IMG/VR virus record: IMGVR_UViG_3300036670_000159
Span: 1-33,169 of that record
Source of the DNA: a virus
Direction: 5' to 3' (one strand)
DNA length: 33,169 nt
Shown here: piece by piece, positions 9,185 through 17,598 of the stretch
Position numbering within the stretch: the stretch's first letter is position 1
How the letters are laid out: the number at the start of each line of letters is the position of its first letter
Translations under genes and position numbers: made by a program
Notes under the pieces: generated by a model
Told to the model about the DNA's origin: nothing
Seen by the model: the letters and a program-made list of their open reading frames with translations, nothing else
Database searches by the model: none

Positions 9185-11602
9185 ATGGCTGAAGAAAGCA
9201 TATTATTACGTGTCGGTATTGACGAGAACCAGATCAAGAAAAGTCAGGATGCAATCATAGCGGCCAGAACTGAGCTTCAACGGTTAAAGGAAGAACAGAA
9301 ATTAGTCGAAACGCAAACAGGCAGGAACTCACGGGTATTTATTGCAAACGAAACCGCGATTGCTGGACTGAATACAACAGTTCGGGAAAATCAGCGCGTT
9401 CTAACGGCTAACAATCGAATCAATGAAGTCAGCACCGGATCTATTATAGAGCTACGGGCTAACATATCAAGACTAAAAAGTGAGTATCAAAACCTAAGCG
9501 CAGCCGAAAGAGAGAACTCGCAAGTTGGCGGGGTATTGCAGGCGGAACTACTAGCACAAACCGAAGCGGCACGAGCTTTGGATCTGGGCATCGGAGTGAC
9601 TAGCTCAAGCGTCGGTAATTATACGCAGTCTATCATTTCAGCGGTTGACAGTTCAGGGCTGTTTGCTAAAGCTCAGGCAGCACTCGCAACCATTCAGACC
9701 GTAGCAACAGCAGCAACCGGAGCCGGAACAATAGCTACTAAGTCTTTTGGAAATGCTTTGATCGCTACGGGAATAGGTGCAATAATTATCTTATTCGGTT
9801 CGCTTATTTCATTCCTTACGAGGACACAGCAGGGTATGGATCTAGTCGCAAAAGCAACTGCTGGACTCAGTACATTTGTAGCAGTCATATTTGACGCGTT
9901 CAGTGATTTAGGTAAGCAGCTAGTTGGAACGATTGTACCCACTTTTGAAGGCTTAGGCGAAATAATAGGTGGTATCATAGACTTGGACTTTGATAGGGTT
10001 AGAAAGGGAGTTGATGGCATAGCGGAGGCAGTTGGCAAGGTTGAGCCTATTAATATATTAGCCGTTGCAGGAGCGGCGGGCAACGCGTCAGCCGAAGCAT
10101 TCAAACTAACTGGACAGCTTCAAAATGTAGTACGAGCTGAAAAGGCCTTGTCGCTTGAGACAGCAAACAGCAGAGCCGAGATTGAAACGCTCAAGAAGGC
10201 AGGTGACGACATAACTAAAAGCACTGAGGAAAGACTGGCGTCTACTCAGAAAGCGAATAGCATCGAACTAGCTCAAGAAGCTAAAAGAACAGCGCTACAA
10301 GAAGACAGGGTTAGGATATTGAAGGAGCAAAACGAACTGAGCAGCTCAACCGACGAAGATATTAACAAAGTAATAGAGGCAGAAATTGAGCTTGCAAATA
10401 TCAGACAGGGAAGCGCAACTATACAAACCGAACTGCAAAACAAACTAAATTCACTAAATAAAGAGGCTGAGGACAAGAAAACAGCAGCAAACGCAACGGC
10501 ACTTGCAGAAATAACTAAGGCAAACGAAGCGGCCACAGCAGCACAAACAAAGGCAGACGCAGAATCATTAAAAGCATCTATTGAGCTACAAAAACAAGTC
10601 AATGAAAGCTATCAGCAGGCACTTGAGCAAAGACAAATTGAAACGGATCTAGCGGTTAGGGATTCGATTAACCAGGTAAGACAGCAGTTTGCGGATGGCT
10701 TGATAGATTTGGACGCGTACCAAACAGCACTAGACCAAGTTGAAGCACTAGCTATTGAGACAAGGCAGGCAGCGTTAACAGGTCAATTAGAAGCCAACAG
10801 AACAAATGCGGTAATTGACGCGGAAACCAGACTAGCAATCGAAACGGAATTGCAAGCTGAATTGAGATCCTTGCAGGATGATAGTATCAGCGCGGGAGTT
10901 GAGAGTCAAAAGGCCGCATTGATTGCAGAAACTAAACTAGCAAAGGATAAAACAGACTTAGCAAAACTAACATCAGATTCACAGATTGCAGCAACCGACG
11001 CGGTACTAAATGCAGCACTCAGCGTATTTGGAGCGCAAAGCGTAGCGGGAAAAATAGCGGCTACATTTCAAGCCGGCATTGATACTTATAGGGCGGCAAA
11101 CTTGGCACTTGCAACTATACCACCTCCGTTTGGTCAAATTGTGGCAGCCGCTACAGTAGTACAAGGGCTTGCAAATGTTAAGAAAATAAACAGCACAGCA
11201 CCTCCAAAATTTGCAGAAGGTGGAGCAATGGAAGTATCGGGGCCATCTCATGCAGGCGGTGGCGTGGATGTTGCTTTGGGAGGTCAAACAGTGGCAAACG
11301 TAGAGGGTGGAGAAGGTTTATTCGTAATGAAGCGATCAGCCTTCGGAGCATTGAAAGCACTGTCTAGTTTCAATCAAAGACACGGAGGCAGATCTTGGAT
11401 GACGGGGAGTCAACGACACTTGGCAGATGGTGGAGCAATCGCACGCTCTGGGGTTCCTATGTTAGACCGTACGGCCTTAACTGATACAAGACAAAGTTTT
11501 GAAAACGCAATTAGCAGCCTGACAATCGTGACAAAGGTAAGTGACCTGAATCGGGTACAAGGGGAAATTAAGCTAGTTGAATTGCAGGGGGATTTGAGGT
11601 AA
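9185..11602 (+). CDS. Tape measure protein
   Basis: The 805-residue product has the classic layout. Residues 10-150 are coiled coil rich in Ala, Glu, Gln and Arg. About 185-280 is hydrophobic (ALIATGIGAIIILFGSLISF, then IFDAF, GTIVPTFEGLGEIIGGIIDL). About 310-620 is a second long coiled coil. Next come a hydrophobic Ala-rich stretch and a glycine-rich end with FAEGGAMEVSGPSHAGGG and VEGGEGLFVM, which is typical of tape measures in Bacteroidota phages. It sets tail length; at roughly 0.15 nm per residue the tail would be near 120 nm. The ATG at 9185 follows the small gene by 3 bases. Confidence 0.93.
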   Translation: MAEESILLRVGIDENQIKKSQDAIIAARTELQRLKEEQKLVETQTGRNSRVFIANETAIAGLNTTVRENQRVLTANNRINEVSTGSIIELRANISRLKSEYQNLSAAERENSQVGGVLQAELLAQTEAARALDLGIGVTSSSVGNYTQSIISAVDSSGLFAKAQAALATIQTVATAATGAGTIATKSFGNALIATGIGAIIILFGSLISFLTRTQQGMDLVAKATAGLSTFVAVIFDAFSDLGKQLVGTIVPTFEGLGEIIGGIIDLDFDRVRKGVDGIAEAVGKVEPINILAVAGAAGNASAEAFKLTGQLQNVVRAEKALSLETANSRAEIETLKKAGDDITKSTEERLASTQKANSIELAQEAKRTALQEDRVRILKEQNELSSSTDEDINKVIEAEIELANIRQGSATIQTELQNKLNSLNKEAEDKKTAANATALAEITKANEAATAAQTKADAESLKASIELQKQVNESYQQALEQRQIETDLAVRDSINQVRQQFADGLIDLDAYQTALDQVEALAIETRQAALTGQLEANRTNAVIDAETRLAIETELQAELRSLQDDSISAGVESQKAALIAETKLAKDKTDLAKLTSDSQIAATDAVLNAALSVFGAQSVAGKIAATFQAGIDTYRAANLALATIPPPFGQIVAAATVVQGLANVKKINSTAPPKFAEGGAMEVSGPSHAGGGVDVALGGQTVANVEGGEGLFVMKRSAFGALKALSSFNQRHGGRSWMTGSQRHLADGGAIARSGVPMLDRTALTDTRQSFENAISSLTIVTKVSDLNRVQGEIKLVELQGDLR

Positions 11603-11701
11603 AAAAATAGGGGGCGGAGGAGTCGAATCTATGTTTCATTTCTAAATTACCGCAGGCGAAACGTCTATTACGTACCTTTTTTAGCCCCTAAATTATATTA
11701 T
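11603..11701. terminator. Convergent intergenic region with pairing arms and T tracts
   Basis: This 99-base stretch separates the tape measure from a gene coming from the other strand. TAGGGGGC at 11608-11615 can pair with GCCCCTA at 11684-11690 over a long loop; read on the minus strand the stem ends in TATTTTTTT, and on the plus strand a run of T precedes GCCCC. ACGT is repeated inside (11661-11664 and 11670-11673). It probably ends transcription from both sides. The 18 bases at 11610-11627, read on the minus strand, also resemble the 3' half of a tRNA. Confidence 0.45.
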
Positions 11702-11914
11702 TTACTTCCTATTTTTTATTATTTCCTCTAAGTCTTCAATACTCAATGATTCATAATCAAGGTATTTTTCTATTGTATTTGCATCCATTTTTAGCGTAAC
11801 TGTAATTGAAACTTTAAAATCAACATTAGGAAGGTGTGATGTTCCGCTAAAACCTTCTAATCCGGTAATTTGTATTTTATATGATTCCGTATTATTTAAT
11901 TGTATGCATTTCAT
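11702..11914 (-). CDS. Hypothetical protein, last gene of the minus-strand cassette
   Basis: The 70-residue product has a beta-rich first half (SYKIQITGLEGF, then VDFKVSITVTLKMDA) and an acidic helical end (LSIEDLEEIIKNRK). I do not recognise it. Its start is strongly supported: the leader reads TTTCACTTAAACAAGAGCGATT before the ATG when read in two pieces, almost the same as the leader of the gene at 23313, and a perfect TATATTTG promoter box lies 24 bases upstream. It may therefore be transcribed on its own as well as with the two genes before it. Confidence 0.72.
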   Translation of the reverse strand: MKCIQLNNTESYKIQITGLEGFSGTSHLPNVDFKVSITVTLKMDANTIEKYLDYESLSIEDLEEIIKNRK

Positions 11915-11937
11915 AATCGCTCTTGTTTAAGTGAAAT

Positions 11938-11945
11938 CAAATATA
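11938..11945 (-). promoter_or_regulatory. Bacteroidota-type -7 box TATATTTG
   Basis: On the minus strand TATATTTG matches TAnnTTTG exactly, 24 bases upstream of the ATG of the 70-residue gene. No TTG is present at the usual 19-21 bases further upstream (the nearest is 26 away), so the -33 element is weak or absent. Confidence 0.5.
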
Positions 11946-11955
11946 ACCTTTTTAT

Positions 11956-12105
11956 TTATTTCTCTGGCATCCAACTTAAAACCTTATCAGAATAATCTTT
12001 TCCAGTTACTAAAAAAACAGTGATAAAGAACGGCAAACAGATAATGAAAACGACTAAGGAGAAAAGCACCGCGATAACTGCTAAAAGTCTTTGTAGGTAG
12101 ATCAT
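11956..12105 (-). CDS. Small one-pass membrane protein
   Basis: The 49-residue product begins MIYLQRLL and has one long hydrophobic segment (about residues 6-34, with LFSLVVFIICLPFFITVFL), then a short charged tail (GKDYSDKVLSWMPEK). It overlaps the upstream regulator gene by 4 bases (ATGA on the minus strand), so the two are translationally coupled. An inner-membrane location is expected. Small membrane proteins in reverse-oriented cassettes of phages often alter superinfection, but that role is only a guess here. Confidence 0.68.
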   Translation of the reverse strand: MIYLQRLLAVIAVLFSLVVFIICLPFFITVFLVTGKDYSDKVLSWMPEK

Positions 12106-12242
12106 GAGTTTAGGTATTTATGTATCAATGTTTTTAAAATATTAGTTTGAGTTTTGTTCTCTTGCTTGACCTTAGCCAAAAAGTTAGCCTTGAGTTCTTT
12201 TGAGATATGTACTTTGATTTGATCGAGATCACCTTTTGGCAT
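12102..12242 (-). CDS. Ribbon-helix-helix (Arc/CopG-like) regulator
   Basis: The 46-residue product has the ribbon-helix-helix pattern: a short basic strand (QIKVHISKEL, residues 8-17), a first helix (KANFLAKVKQENK), a turn, and a second helix (TQTNILKTLIHKYL). It is first in a minus-strand operon and is coupled by ATGA to the membrane protein gene. The 68 bases between its start and the head-protease start (12243-12310) are a divergent control region, where it could repress itself and affect the capsid genes. Confidence 0.7.
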   Translation of the reverse strand: MPKGDLDQIKVHISKELKANFLAKVKQENKTQTNILKTLIHKYLNS

Positions 12243-12310
12243 ATCACTATAATTATTTTGGGGAATTTACAAAAATTTATTTGGATAGTGTAATTAAATT
12301 AGTAGCGAAA

Positions 12311-13891
12311 ATGAAGATACTTAACATTGAGGGCATAATTAGCAGCAAAGCCGACGCGGAATATTTTGCGGAAGGTGAAAAATACTTTAGTTACGACGAT
12401 TTAGAGGACTTCATTTCCAATAATTACGGTGAGCCTTTTGAGGCAGTAATCAAAAGTCCCGGAGGTTCGGTTGAGGAAGGATTCAGGATCTACGACAAGC
12501 TCAAATCCTTGCAGGTTACAACCGTTGCAATCGTAGCAAATAGCATAGCTTCAGTGATTTTCTTAGCCGGTAAGGTGCGAAAAGTTACGGAAAACACAGA
12601 AATGATTATCCATAACGCGTGGGTTGCCGCTGAATCACTTTCGGGCGAAAAGCTAAATGTTCACAGCTTAGCCGCCTTGACAGAGCTTTTTGCCGCTACT
12701 GATATGCAAATCTTGAACGTGTATACTCAAATTGCAGGAGATGCAAAGGCTACTAAGCTATTAGCACTAATGGGCAAAGAATCACGGCTAGACTCAAAAA
12801 TGGCTTTGGACTTTGGCTTTGCTACTGAGCTAGTCGATAACACTTATTCTGCTATTAGCTTCAAAAATAAGGTTTTGACTTTTAGCAGGAATCAAATAAG
12901 TATTTTAGCGTTGCAGGATGGCCCCCTTACTACTTATGCCGATGTTGTATATATTAATAAATTAGGTGAAGTACTACTTTTACAAAGATTAGAAACTGAC
13001 GATTTTGAGCCGCTTACTTTTGGTTTTCCCGGTGGTAAGGTTATGCAAGGAGAAACCATCAATGCGGCGGCTATACGTGAATTTAAAGAGGAGACAGGGA
13101 TTGAATTAAAAGAAGTAACTCAACTAGCTGAAATAGTCAACGAAGATGAAAGCCTAAGCGTTTATTTTTACGCGGTAGGAAACGAACCTACACCTACGAA
13201 GCTAACAGAGCATAAGGCAGCATCTTATACAGATTTAAAATCATTTAAAGGTTTAGCTTTTATAAAAGGTCAAGAAAAAAGATTTACAGAATTAGTTAAT
13301 AAAACTTTAGAAAAAACGAATATGAAAACAGAAGAGAAAATCACAGCCTTTGAAAAGGCGATGAACGCTATGAAAAACATCTTCAAGGTCCAGATGAGAA
13401 ACATGGTGATGACAACCGACGCAGGCATTTCCATTTTTATCGAGGGCGAAGGCGATATGTTGGGTAAAACGGTCTACATCGCAGAAGATGGACTTCCAAC
13501 CGAAACATTAGCTCCAGCAGGCCCGCATAGTTTTGCAGATGGATCCAGTGTGGTACTTGACGAGTCAGGCGTTGTAATCGAAGTATTGCCAGCCGCGGCA
13601 CCAGCCGCAAAAATGGAAGAACTAGAGGCTACTATCGCAGCAATGGAAGATGACAAGATGAAAGATCAAGCCGTTATAGTCGCTTTGAATGCAAAAGTTG
13701 CAGCTCAGGCGAAAGTAATCGCAGACGGCAATACAAAGCTTACAAAGTTGGCAGTTGATTTCAAGGATCTAAAAAACATGGTGAACGGTGATCCTGACAC
13801 TAAGAAGAAAAATGCAGTTATTCCAGCAGCGGACTTCGCAAAATTATCGACTTCTGAGCAAATCAGACAGCGAGCAATGAATAAGGTTTAA
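12311..13891 (+). CDS. ClpP-like head protease fused to a Nudix hydrolase and a scaffold-like domain
   Basis: The 526-residue product has three parts. Residues 1-190 are an S14 (ClpP-like) protease of the capsid-maturation kind: SPGGSVEEGFRIYDKL (49-64), catalytic Ser81 in NSIASVIFLAG, His101 in MIIHNAW, Asp161 in RLDSKMALDFGF. Residues 205-330 are a Nudix domain with a complete box: Gly242, Glu248, then REFKEETGI at 256-264, followed by a typical EHKAASYTD segment. Residues 338-526 are an Ala-rich, partly coiled scaffold-like region. I start at ATG 12311, preceded by AGCGAAA; an upstream TTG at 12236 would overlap the minus-strand gene. The Nudix part is AT-rich: GC counted in 60-base blocks is 20-33% there against 43-50% in the flanks. 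Confidence 0.9.
   Translation: MKILNIEGIISSKADAEYFAEGEKYFSYDDLEDFISNNYGEPFEAVIKSPGGSVEEGFRIYDKLKSLQVTTVAIVANSIASVIFLAGKVRKVTENTEMIIHNAWVAAESLSGEKLNVHSLAALTELFAATDMQILNVYTQIAGDAKATKLLALMGKESRLDSKMALDFGFATELVDNTYSAISFKNKVLTFSRNQISILALQDGPLTTYADVVYINKLGEVLLLQRLETDDFEPLTFGFPGGKVMQGETINAAAIREFKEETGIELKEVTQLAEIVNEDESLSVYFYAVGNEPTPTKLTEHKAASYTDLKSFKGLAFIKGQEKRFTELVNKTLEKTNMKTEEKITAFEKAMNAMKNIFKVQMRNMVMTTDAGISIFIEGEGDMLGKTVYIAEDGLPTETLAPAGPHSFADGSSVVLDESGVVIEVLPAAAPAAKMEELEATIAAMEDDKMKDQAVIVALNAKVAAQAKVIADGNTKLTKLAVDFKDLKNMVNGDPDTKKKNAVIPAADFAKLSTSEQIRQRAMNKV
13322..13891 (+). CDS. Possible nested scaffold protein from an internal start
   Basis: Met338 of the protease fusion is the first residue after the Nudix domain and is preceded by AAAACGAAT, similar to the ACGA leader motif. 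Translation from here would give a 189-residue scaffold protein made of the Ala-rich coiled part only. Lambda makes its scaffold Nu3 in the same way from inside its protease gene C. No independent evidence for the start is available. Confidence 0.35.
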   Translation: MKTEEKITAFEKAMNAMKNIFKVQMRNMVMTTDAGISIFIEGEGDMLGKTVYIAEDGLPTETLAPAGPHSFADGSSVVLDESGVVIEVLPAAAPAAKMEELEATIAAMEDDKMKDQAVIVALNAKVAAQAKVIADGNTKLTKLAVDFKDLKNMVNGDPDTKKKNAVIPAADFAKLSTSEQIRQRAMNKV

Positions 13892-13912
13892 TCCATAAAA
13901 CTAAAAAATACA

Positions 13913-15148
13913 ATGGCAGACATTAATTTTCCAAACGGTAATACTTACGCGGGTAAGCTCTATGCCGAATTTCTTACACCCGCAATTCTAGCTCCAACAG
14001 GGATCGTAAATCGCGGGCTTGTTACACCTGTTGAATCAGTTAAAAATGTGGAGACGCTACGAGGCGTTAACCGTGTGATTGAATTGCAAACTCCTAGTGC
14101 AAAGTTTGTCCCTCAAGGCGGTGACATTGAACTAAGCGAAAAGCAGTTGACCATGAAGGCTTATGAAGTCATGGATGAGATCGACGCGATTCAGTTGAGC
14201 AAAACTTGGGAATCCGAGCAGCAATCACCTGGTTCTTTCGAGGATTACAAATTGACTCCACAGCTTTACAACTTCTTGTTAGATAGAATTTACGTTCCGC
14301 GTATGGCTATTGCTAACGAAGCTCTGTATATTCTAGGTAAGGCAGGCGTAAACAATACCCAAGTAGCTACAGCTACTTTCTCAGGCGATTACGTTGGTCT
14401 TTTGGGAGAAGCAAAAGCAGACGCAGGCGTCGCTAAAAAGTCTTTGCCAGCTAATTCAAAGTCCGCAATTTCAGCTATTGCATCAGGTACAGCAGGTAAT
14501 GCAACGGTAACGGTGGCAAGTGCTGCAAATATCATTGTTGGAGACCGTGTAACCTTGATTGGAACCAATGGAAACCAGACAATCGGTGGCGCCACAATTT
14601 CAGGTCAAGTCGTTACTGTAATTGAGATTACAGGGAATGTATTGACTATTGACGAGGTAGTATCAGGATCAACCGCGGCTAGTGCTGGTAATGCTTTTTT
14701 CATTAATCAGAACAACGTGCTAAGCGTTTTGACTTCTGTATATATGAGCATTCCGCAAAAGGTCAAGAAGCAGATTTCAAACACGGGTAACGGAAGAACA
14801 AAGATTCACGTTTCCGATAGAATCGCAGACGCTTACAGAGTTGCGAACGGTTTAATTGCAGGCGGAGCAGGATTATTTACGCGTGAGGGTTACTTTGATC
14901 AAGACGCTTTGATTCCTTACTTGGATATTGATTTGGTAGCTATGCCATACTGGGAAGATAACCTTTTAGCGGTGTTCAATCCGGGTAACGTGTTCTTAGG
15001 TTTTGACTTGCTTTCTGATGAGGTTTTTGCCCAAGTATTGTACTTGGGAGATGTGACAGGGGATCAGGTTTACCGGATTAAAAACCGAATGAAATCTGAC
15101 ATCACTTACAAGTACGCAGCGGAGTTATCCTTGTACTTACCAAAATAA
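13913..15148 (+). CDS. Major capsid protein (HK97 fold)
   Basis: The 411-residue product follows the protease-scaffold gene by 21 bases, the standard position. The N-terminus (YAGKLYAEFLTPAILAP) and the central part (VESVKNVETLRGVNRVIELQ, then PQGGDIELSEKQLTMKAYEV) fit the N-arm, E-loop and P-domain of HK97-type coat proteins. The C-terminal half (IHVSDRIADAYR, VAMPYWEDNLLAVF, then VYRIKNRMKSDITYKYA) fits the A-domain. About residues 183-268 form a Gly/Ala/Thr/Val-rich beta insert (GNATVTVASAANIIVGDRVT) that looks like an extra Ig-like surface domain. A hairpin follows the gene. Confidence 0.9.
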   Translation: MADINFPNGNTYAGKLYAEFLTPAILAPTGIVNRGLVTPVESVKNVETLRGVNRVIELQTPSAKFVPQGGDIELSEKQLTMKAYEVMDEIDAIQLSKTWESEQQSPGSFEDYKLTPQLYNFLLDRIYVPRMAIANEALYILGKAGVNNTQVATATFSGDYVGLLGEAKADAGVAKKSLPANSKSAISAIASGTAGNATVTVASAANIIVGDRVTLIGTNGNQTIGGATISGQVVTVIEITGNVLTIDEVVSGSTAASAGNAFFINQNNVLSVLTSVYMSIPQKVKKQISNTGNGRTKIHVSDRIADAYRVANGLIAGGAGLFTREGYFDQDALIPYLDIDLVAMPYWEDNLLAVFNPGNVFLGFDLLSDEVFAQVLYLGDVTGDQVYRIKNRMKSDITYKYAAELSLYLPK

Positions 15149-15151
15149 TTT

Positions 15152-15181
15152 AATTGGGTGGCCGTGAAAAGTCACCCAATT
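15152..15181 (+). promoter_or_regulatory. Hairpin after the capsid gene
   Basis: AATTGGGTG and CACCCAATT form a perfect 9-bp stem with a 12-base loop. No run of T follows, so it is more likely an mRNA-stabilising or partial-termination hairpin behind a highly expressed gene than a full terminator. Confidence 0.6.
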
Positions 15182-15204
15182 TCACAATTTAAAAAAATAC
15201 AAAT

Positions 15205-15789
15205 ATGCCAGAAATTCAATGCAGCGTATTAACACGGTCAATAAATCCAGATTGTGCAGCAACCCGAAAGCCGGGCGGGCTTAATAAACGAATGTATATC
15301 GGTCTACTTTCAGACCTTACAGCCGTAACTTTTGGAACTGGAAACTTAGCATCAGCTTTTACCTTTGCGGCAGAAAAAGGATTTATTAAGGTCGTAGGTA
15401 AGCGAGAAAAGCATAATTCATTTATGGCTCTGGAAGTTGGGGATAACTTTTCTTTGAGAAATCACGGAATCAATTTGGTCATCTATTACAATGGTCCGCT
15501 TGAACTAGAAGCTATTGAGTCATTGATTGATGTTGAGGGAGTTTTTATCGTTGTCGAAACGAATAGCGGTGAAATAGAATGCTGGGGTGTAAACAAAGGA
15601 GCTAACTTTACAAATTTTGGACTCAAGGCTAGTGCTATTGATGGAGGTTCCGGTACTGCGATTATAGATAGTAATATCTATACGTTGGCAATGAATGGAA
15701 ACCACGAAAATCTACAGCTTTATTTCAGATCAACTGAAAGTTCTACGCTTGCGGAAGATATTGCAATCATAGAAGCGTTAGTAGTTTAA
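15205..15789 (+). CDS. Structural protein, probably the tail tube
   Basis: The 194-residue product starts MPEIQCSVLTRSINPDCAA and continues with GGLNKRMYIGLLSDL. The body is beta-rich (GINLVIYYNGPLELEAIESL, then GVFIVVETNSGEIECWGV) and ends with a strand pattern like that of tail-tube monomers. I associate this pattern with the major tail tube of Bacteroidota siphophages, but a capsid decoration protein is the main alternative because the gene directly follows the capsid gene. It stands between a hairpin and a terminator, which would allow separate and high expression. Confidence 0.6.
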   Translation: MPEIQCSVLTRSINPDCAATRKPGGLNKRMYIGLLSDLTAVTFGTGNLASAFTFAAEKGFIKVVGKREKHNSFMALEVGDNFSLRNHGINLVIYYNGPLELEAIESLIDVEGVFIVVETNSGEIECWGVNKGANFTNFGLKASAIDGGSGTAIIDSNIYTLAMNGNHENLQLYFRSTESSTLAEDIAIIEALVV

Positions 15790-15808
15790 TCAAAAGTTAA
15801 AATTAAAC

Positions 15809-15840
15809 AGCCCTACTCGTTTTTCGGGCGGGGCTTTTTT
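15809..15840 (+). terminator. Rho-independent terminator
   Basis: AGCCC at 15809 pairs with GGGCT at 15831, with an inner TCG/CGG-rich loop, followed by six T. It separates the tail-tube-like gene from the portal unit. Confidence 0.75.
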
Positions 15841-15865
15841 CATATCTTACTTAAAATTAAAGGTT

Positions 15866-16060
15866 ATGCTGAAATTCAAACCAGAATACCAAAATAAAAC
15901 TTTAGTCCTATCGGATGGCACGCTAGTTAATTCAGATAATATCCAAGGTGAACACGTACAAAAGCGATTGAAAGAAACTCCATTGGTCAGTGAATTTTTT
16001 GAATCTGTAAAATCAGAAACTAAAGAGCCTTTAAAAGTTGCAAGAAAAAAAACTAAATGA
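15866..16060 (+). CDS. Small basic protein upstream of the portal
   Basis: The 64-residue product has an N-terminal beta-like segment (LKFKPEYQNKTLVLSDGT) followed by a helical, strongly basic end (SETKEPLKVARKKTK). It overlaps the portal gene by 4 bases (ATGA). Short proteins with a KPEYxxKT beginning occur near capsid genes in related phages as far as I recall, but no function is known. The lysine-rich end could bind DNA. Confidence 0.65.
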   Translation: MLKFKPEYQNKTLVLSDGTLVNSDNIQGEHVQKRLKETPLVSEFFESVKSETKEPLKVARKKTK

Positions 16061-17598
16061 GCAAGTCTAGGAATGTAAGGCAGGCACAACGGATTATAAA
16101 TATGCAGGCTCCTTCAGCTAGTGCCAAGGGCGAAACCATATTCAAAACCTTGTCCGATCTAAAAGCAAAGGTAGCTAGATCAATTAAAAATGCCGTTGCT
16201 GTTATTGTAAAGAACCAGGCAAATGATTACTATTTTTTTGGTGAACTTGATAATTTGCCAAATGCGATCATTGCAACGGTAGACAATTCAGGAACCGCAA
16301 CCGCTTGCGTAAATAGGTTGCAGCAATTCATAAAGGCAGACGGTTTTATCCTAGAAGGTATGGATGAAATTAAAGCTAACAAGTACCAAAGTTTAGCTGG
16401 GCTAGTCGATGACTTGAGTACAAACGTGTCCTATTTTCAGGGCTTGGCACTTAGATTGGTTTTTAATAATCTTGGTCAGGTTGCAAAGGTTTATTGCATT
16501 CCAATTTCTACTTTGAGAAGGAAAAATAACGGTTTTGAATATAACCCGCTGATGGGAGAGCTGGGAAAGTTTGAAAAAGATACACGGTTTTATCCTGAGT
16601 ACGATCCTGAAAGAACACCTATAGAACGCGCTCAAATCATAGCCGAACAAATCGAATTGCATAAAGAGCAGTTGGGCGAGATCCTATACGTATTCAAGAA
16701 AGGTTTAGGCAGGTATTACGACAAATACCCTGTACCTCCGTTTTATGCAAGTATTGAAGATGTAGTAAGTGATGGAAAGATAAGCCGCTTAGACCTTAGA
16801 AATATTGCGCAAGGATTTAGAACCCCGGTTGTGATTTCTACAGGGCCAATCGACGATCAAAACAAAGACGAAGACGACAAGACCGCTCAAGACTATTTTG
16901 ATGAGGCACTAGAAAGTTTCACGGGGGAAGACGCAAGCCCGATTTTGCACCTAAAAGGCAGCACTGAGGAATTTAAACCTACGGTGACAACAATCAACGT
17001 AGCGGAAATATTAGACCAGACAGATCGGGCAAGTGATCGGATCGCAAAGCGCGTAGCTAGAATAATGAGCGTACCAGCCATTTTAGTGGGTCTTGGCGAA
17101 GGGGGAAAACTGGGAGATACCAACGAAATAAAAAACCAGATGGCCCTCTTTTCACTTTCGGTATTTGGTATGCAGGACATGATTAAGCAGGCATTTGATA
17201 TGCTCAAACCAATACTGGCTTTGGAGGGTTTACCTCCTAATGCTGATTTTACACTAAGCACGCTCAAGCCTTTTGACTTTATACCCGATTCAGTTATTGC
17301 AGGACTGACAATAGACGAGCAAAAGGAACTGTTTGAGATTGACCTTGAAAGTAGTGTTTCCGTAACTTTGCCGGGGGCAGCTCCTGAATTGACAGCACAA
17401 GAACAAAACAATGCCTTTGCAAACTTGACAGGTCGACAACTGCAAAATATACAGCGCATAGTTCGAAAGTTCAACAAAGATGAATTGACCTACGATCAAG
17501 CCGAGCTTATGTTAATGCAGGGATTTAATATGAAAGACATTGACGCAGCAATTTGGTTAGTAACTAAAGACGAAGAGGAGGAAAATTATGCCGGATAG
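16057..17598 (+). CDS. Portal protein
   Basis: The 513-residue product has features of siphophage portals: an N-terminal region with INMQAPSAS and FKTLSDLKAKVARSIKNAVA, the wing part with GLALRLVFNNLGQVAKVYCI and ISTLRRKNNGFEYNP, a stem region (ILDQTDRASDRIAKRVARIM), and SVPAILVGLGEGGKLGDTNE before the C-terminal helices. The LGD-NEI pattern near residue 355 is typical of the clip/crown part. The portal forms the dodecameric DNA gate of the head. The gene lies after the capsid gene, whereas most siphophages put it before. It overlaps the next gene by 11 bases. Confidence 0.9.
   Translation: MSKSRNVRQAQRIINMQAPSASAKGETIFKTLSDLKAKVARSIKNAVAVIVKNQANDYYFFGELDNLPNAIIATVDNSGTATACVNRLQQFIKADGFILEGMDEIKANKYQSLAGLVDDLSTNVSYFQGLALRLVFNNLGQVAKVYCIPISTLRRKNNGFEYNPLMGELGKFEKDTRFYPEYDPERTPIERAQIIAEQIELHKEQLGEILYVFKKGLGRYYDKYPVPPFYASIEDVVSDGKISRLDLRNIAQGFRTPVVISTGPIDDQNKDEDDKTAQDYFDEALESFTGEDASPILHLKGSTEEFKPTVTTINVAEILDQTDRASDRIAKRVARIMSVPAILVGLGEGGKLGDTNEIKNQMALFSLSVFGMQDMIKQAFDMLKPILALEGLPPNADFTLSTLKPFDFIPDSVIAGLTIDEQKELFEIDLESSVSVTLPGAAPELTAQEQNNAFANLTGRQLQNIQRIVRKFNKDELTYDQAELMLMQGFNMKDIDAAIWLVTKDEEEENYAG

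Follow-up and report, generated by a model that had tools for sequence, protein, structure and literature searches.

An optional Nudix domain between the protease and scaffold-like parts of a phage head protein

The window analyzed here is the whole of a 33,169-nucleotide stretch of viral DNA (IMG/VR record IMGVR_UViG_3300036670_000159), and a small tailed phage is the best explanation of its source. The neighborhood of interest contains genes for terminase subunits, a tape measure protein, a combined protease/Nudix/scaffold protein, a probable capsid protein and a portal protein. Since the terminase is closest to those of Flavobacterium phages (57%), the host is probably a flavobacteria-like member of the Bacteroidota. 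The features discussed below are as follows.

12311..13891, plus strand: whole open reading frame (526 amino acids plus stop), encoding a ClpP-type head protease, a Nudix domain and a scaffold-like tail
12311..12895, plus strand: ClpP-type (S14-like) head maturation protease, residues 1-195 (Pfam, PHROG and alignment of the triad)
12898..13318, plus strand: optional cassette, 421 nucleotides replacing 19 nucleotides of the Nudix-less allele (blastn breakpoints and DNA alignment)
12938..13246, plus strand: Nudix core, residues 210-312, with the Nudix box at residues 242-264 (PF00293, AF2 model and box)
13322..13888, plus strand: scaffold-like tail with its own candidate start, ATG 13322-13324 (Met338) (invariance of Met338, AT-rich upstream sequence, predicted helix)
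13913..15148, plus strand: probable major capsid protein of 411 amino acids, directly downstream (position and conserved neighborhood)
16057..17598, plus strand: portal protein (phrog_11226, portal, 7.6e-28), 2.2 kb beyond the protease gene

We infer the identity of the capsid protein from its location and conserved neighborhood, as the one PHROG family that it matches has no known function. The order of the genes at 9185-17598 (tape measure, protease, probable capsid, portal) looks unusual, in that the portal gene follows the capsid gene and tail genes precede head genes. A small divergent cassette on the minus strand (11702-12242) lies between the tape measure and protease genes, and its open reading frames encode products of 46 amino acids (ribbon-helix-helix-like, as judged by eye), 49 amino acids (membrane-like) and 70 amino acids. 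The stretch around the 70-amino-acid frame (about 11695-11937) is missing from the alignments of the related contigs L005, L007 and L008 and is present in L006.

The protease, the Nudix domain and the scaffold-like tail are encoded in one frame, which runs uninterrupted through 526 codons from ATG 12311 to a stop ending at 13891. An earlier note, made from the letters alone, had read this locus as one polypeptide with the three parts in that order. This reading is borne out by the open frame and by Pfam and PHROG matches, and for the tail by its position, predicted helices and gene order. The same start and domain order, sought in other phages, were found in L018, L002 and L003. None of 50,697 phage records matches at least 80% of the window protein in one place, and scans of genome contigs revealed no prophage relatives of it. 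The AF2 model of the full-length protein is poor (pLDDT 54.5), and the domain arrangement in it was therefore left unused.

The protease part matches Pfam CLP_protease (PF00574) at residues 42-177 (1e-12, 48.8 bits against a gathering cut-off of 20.2) and the head maturation protease family phrog_94 (5.5e-22). The NCBIfam matches of the open reading frame agree with these assignments but stay below their cut-offs, including the equivalog domain NF045542 (Clp_rel_HeadMat), which scores 72.4 bits against a curated cut-off of 120. In an alignment to E. coli ClpP, the candidate catalytic residues Ser78, His101 and Glu157 are invariant in 11 family members, and they probably form the protease triad. 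The earlier note had proposed Ser81, His101 and Asp161. Only His101 of that triad is retained: Ser81 is also invariant yet out of register with the ClpP serine, and position 161 is not conserved, being Gly in most of the divergent relatives.

The evidence for the Nudix domain is of several kinds. Residues 210-312 match Pfam NUDIX (PF00293) at 5e-15 (56.1 bits against a gathering cut-off of 21.1), the protein matches a MutT/NUDIX PHROG at 2.5e-17, and the box GKVMQGETINAAAIREFKEETGI at residues 242-264 fits GX5EX7REUXEEXGU, in line with the complete box given in the earlier note. The Nudix domain modeled alone with AF2 is confident (pLDDT 92), and its best PDB matches are Nudix hydrolases, with DR1025 (1sjy) at the top (VIA-align Z 17.0, rmsd 3.0, 131 aligned residues), so that structure prediction also supports a Nudix fold. 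DR1025, NUDT18, BdRppH, NrtR and MutT, which belong to several substrate classes, match the model at tied scores, and thus no substrate follows from the structure. A Pro 15-16 residues after the Nudix box marks ADP-ribose enzymes, and a Tyr 16-18 residues after it marks Ap4A hydrolases. The window Nudix has neither: Asp and Glu are found at +15 and +16 in place of the former, and Glu, Ser and Leu at +16 to +18 in place of the latter. The catalytic REx2EE is retained in all six aligned Nudix domains, although the final Gly of the box is missing from L002. In the single pair that could be measured (L002 and L003), dN/dS is 0.084 in the Nudix domain, 0.054 in the protease and 0.163 in the scaffold, and the Nudix domain in this pair is thus under strong purifying selection.

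The last third of the open reading frame has no Pfam match over the cut-off. We describe it as scaffold-like on account of its position before the probable capsid gene, the gene order and the long helices predicted by the low-confidence full-length model, among them a long C-terminal helix at residues 438-492. This tail probably has a translation start of its own. Met338, with the codon ATG 13322, is conserved without exception in 11 family members, Nudix-plus and Nudix-less alike and including L117. The 20 nucleotides upstream of it have an AT fraction of 0.80, the joint highest among 60 internal in-frame ATGs; the mean AT content in the same interval is 72% for 45 gene starts and 60% for the 60 internal ATGs. 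These observations suggest that ATG 13322 probably starts a separately made scaffold protein.

The fusion is real and the Nudix domain in it is optional. In blastn comparisons with L005, L006 and L007, the match breaks at 12897 and resumes at 13319, and the net gain of the cassette is 402 nucleotides, or 134 codons, in frame. The Nudix domain is absent from this junction in L005, L006, L007, L008, L009, L010, L117 and the partial L116; the first four share 96-99% protein identity with the window and have near-identical junctions. It is present at the same junction in L018, L002, L003/L004 and the partial L109, which were found in scans of viral contigs and come from other assemblies. Because these other contigs carry the domain at the same site, sequencing error is excluded as the source of the fusion, and the probability that an assembly chimera joined separate genes is negligible; no point was found in favor of either. 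Both findings that the earlier note had named as fatal to its reading, a Nudix box unmatched by any profile and a joining by sequencing error, can thus be dismissed. No relocated Nudix domain was found in L006 (32.4 kb) and L008 (35.8 kb), the two longest records of the near-identical set, either of which may be incomplete. The existence of Nudix-less sister phages implies that these phages can do without the domain in at least some hosts.

For both flanks, unrooted trees place the window together with L005 (support 98). Because the window allele groups inside the Nudix-less set, the simplest reading is that the Nudix domain probably entered the window lineage as a cassette. Fitch parsimony likewise gives a Nudix-less ancestor with three changes, on a tree whose deep branches are weak (48-87 for most). 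Alternatively, the Nudix domain could be ancestral, lost several times and kept in the window, a history that we regard as quite possible though not the one to which we incline. It would account for the identical insertion site in all Nudix-plus members and for the Nudix tree, in which the window is paired with L018, and L002 is paired with L003, a pattern that a domain traveling with the protease should produce; it fits poorly with the near-identical junctions shared by L005-L008, the grouping of the window with L005 and the parsimony reconstruction. Repeated loss of the Nudix domain, or exchange of alleles, may lie behind the plus/minus pattern.

The later insertion of the Nudix stretch had been proposed in the earlier note from low GC content. 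The insertion stands, borne out far better by the near-identical Nudix-less sister phages than by base composition, whereas the GC argument itself has largely been set aside. The Nudix stretch has 35% GC against 38% in the whole window, which is within the normal range of the window (23rd percentile of stretches of equal length), and its 60-base blocks range from 0.20 to 0.50. Truly low GC (25%) is found only at about 13200-13321, some 120 bases directly before ATG 13322, and the Nudix domains of L002 and L003 are not AT-rich. GC at third codon positions is 0.21 in the window Nudix against 0.43 and 0.54 in the flanks, and this low GC3 fits a recent gain.

Nudix domains are also joined to other phage proteins. 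Besides the ClpP-type fusions in the window, L018, L002 and L003, a Nudix domain is located inside an XkdF-type protease (PF14550) in L016, where it is 67% identical to a Nudix domain of Flavobacterium phage MaF61. It precedes DUF2213 head proteases in L089 and L062 (strong matches) and in L097 and L070 (weak matches), and in phage Pam4 it comes after MuF. A tree of 53 Nudix domains unites those borne by ClpP-type, XkdF-type and T4-like proteins in one clade (local support 0.86), with a support of 0.996 for the ClpP-borne domains. This clade is provisional, because the window Nudix itself served as the seed for sampling and fourteen open reading frames lacking a strict box are not in the tree. 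The domains fused to DUF2213 and MuF appear to be more distant from the window Nudix than those borne by XkdF-type and T4-like proteins. In Burkholderia phage Bm1 (L103, 2486-4995), a separate MutT/NUDIX gene lies three short open reading frames upstream of the head maturation protease gene. The family phrog_15528, 794 positions long and annotated as a portal protein, shows matches to Nudix domains at about positions 510-630, which suggests a portal-Nudix fusion.

Two large proteins combine a Nudix domain with many [LI]xE motifs.

L012:520-3291: MaF61 ORF123, 924 amino acids
L017:3343-7413: L017 protein, 1,357 amino acids

The T4 prohead protease gp21 cuts after L/I-X-E (PMC9026906). The plain motif [LI]xE occurs 28 times in MaF61 ORF123 (12.6 expected) and 37 times in the L017 protein (22.6 expected), and a stricter form, [LI][NFSD]E[SGA], which was picked after the sequences had been inspected, occurs 10 times (0.6 expected) and 12 times (1.2 expected), respectively. 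In both proteins, [LI]xE sites flank the Nudix domain on both sides within 16-36 residues, and the stricter motif is absent inside the domain. The annotated genes of MaF61 include neck, prohead scaffold, terminase and portal. From the motif and from this gene content, both proteins would be internal head proteins, possibly T4-like core polyproteins. LxE sites are not enriched in the window protein.

What role would a Nudix domain have in such a chain? We consider the chances about even that it is cargo, an enzyme brought into the prohead by way of the protease-scaffold chain. The proposed route, of which we infer the internal start, packaging, release, ejection and substrate, would be as follows. 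The gene would combine protease and scaffold much as lambda C/Nu3 does, with the Nudix cassette as an optional element of the linker before the internal scaffold start. Plain scaffold would be made from ATG 13322, and the scaffold part of the full-length protein would bring this longer chain into the prohead, where Nudix copies would be in the minority. Next, cleavage of the linkers by the head protease would leave free Nudix inside the head, from which it would be ejected along with the DNA. Once ejected, the enzyme would hydrolyze a nucleotide-diphosphate-linked molecule, perhaps a host defense signal or an RNA cap. That the domain is packaged into the prohead is plausible, and the same idea has been published for other fusions of Nudix domains to head proteins (PMC9503650).

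The cargo role is favored by the recurrent fusion of Nudix domains to phage proteins that are unrelated to one another and include several head proteins. The single clade of ClpP-, XkdF- and T4-like-borne domains, the LxE sites flanking the Nudix domain in MaF61 and L017, the dN/dS value, the retained REx2EE, the alleles at a single site and the arrangement in Bm1 also count for it; the lack of an LxE excess in the window protein, the placing of the two LxE-rich proteins in a head by motif and gene content only, the lost Gly in L002, the reliance of dN/dS on one pair and the Nudix-less sisters count against it. It is unlikely, in our estimate, that the domain instead acts late in the infected cell, in cleaning of the nucleotide pool or processing of RNA 5′ ends, and is fused for shared expression without being delivered. 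The mixture of MutT, Ap4A hydrolase and RppH-like structure matches and the abundance of stand-alone Nudix genes in viral contigs would suit such a role; expression, however, needs no fusion to a prohead-bound protein, let alone one repeated with unrelated head proteins. A purely structural part, as a spacer of the protease-scaffold chain without catalysis, is more improbable still. The domain does sit in the protease-scaffold linker, and the box of L002 does lack its last Gly, but REx2EE is kept in every aligned domain at a dN/dS of 0.084, and near-identical phages manage without any such spacer.

If the Nudix domain is indeed head-delivered cargo, a broader picture can be drawn, which we offer tentatively and hold to be rather doubtful: it would be a one-domain plus/minus cassette that is swapped by recombination into the protease-scaffold linker, has passed from one to another of several unrelated head proteins in phages of Bacteroidota and protects against some host defense based on nucleotide signals. 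Phage heads have been proposed to carry enzymes that act at injection, and natural test pairs for such enzymes are useful and, to our knowledge, few. In the near-identical phages described here, the presence or absence of one Nudix domain in the linker is what sets their versions of this gene apart, so that their virion content and host range could be compared directly. The protease-scaffold linker also has the look of a place naturally suited to the loading of cargo.

Fusions of Nudix domains to head proteins are already published, and our finding is a variant of that kind. Iyer et al. (2022) described NudE-like domains fused directly to MuF, portal and a capsid-processing serine peptidase, and proposed that the fused Nudix is packaged and injected, an argument of the same form as ours (PMC9503650). 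The passage concerned mentions neither a fusion of the ClpP-type protease/scaffold kind nor plus/minus alleles, and we found no description of this version or of a plus/minus pair in near-identical phages, although the figures or supplements of that study could overlap with the present case (PMC9503650). Among known protein families, the ClpP-related head maturation proteases of phrog_94 and NF045542 resemble the window protein in its protease part only. PHROG 3778 (head maturation protease with DUF2213) and PHROG 6216 share with it the presence of a protease and a Nudix domain in one chain, as in L089 and L062, but their protease belongs to another domain family and their Nudix domain is N-terminal rather than in a protease-scaffold linker. 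Lambda C/Nu3 is a nested protease-scaffold gene. The window gene would resemble it in that the scaffold part apparently has its own in-frame start inside the protease gene, while lambda C is not of ClpP type and has no Nudix domain. The internal proteins of T4 are packaged and then ejected (PMC9026906). Together with Alt, they are processed by gp21 (PMC9026906). An enzyme thus travels in the T4 head along with the core until the head protease releases it, which is the route proposed for the window protein, whereas the protease and the cleavage sites of T4 are different and Alt is an ADP-ribosyltransferase.
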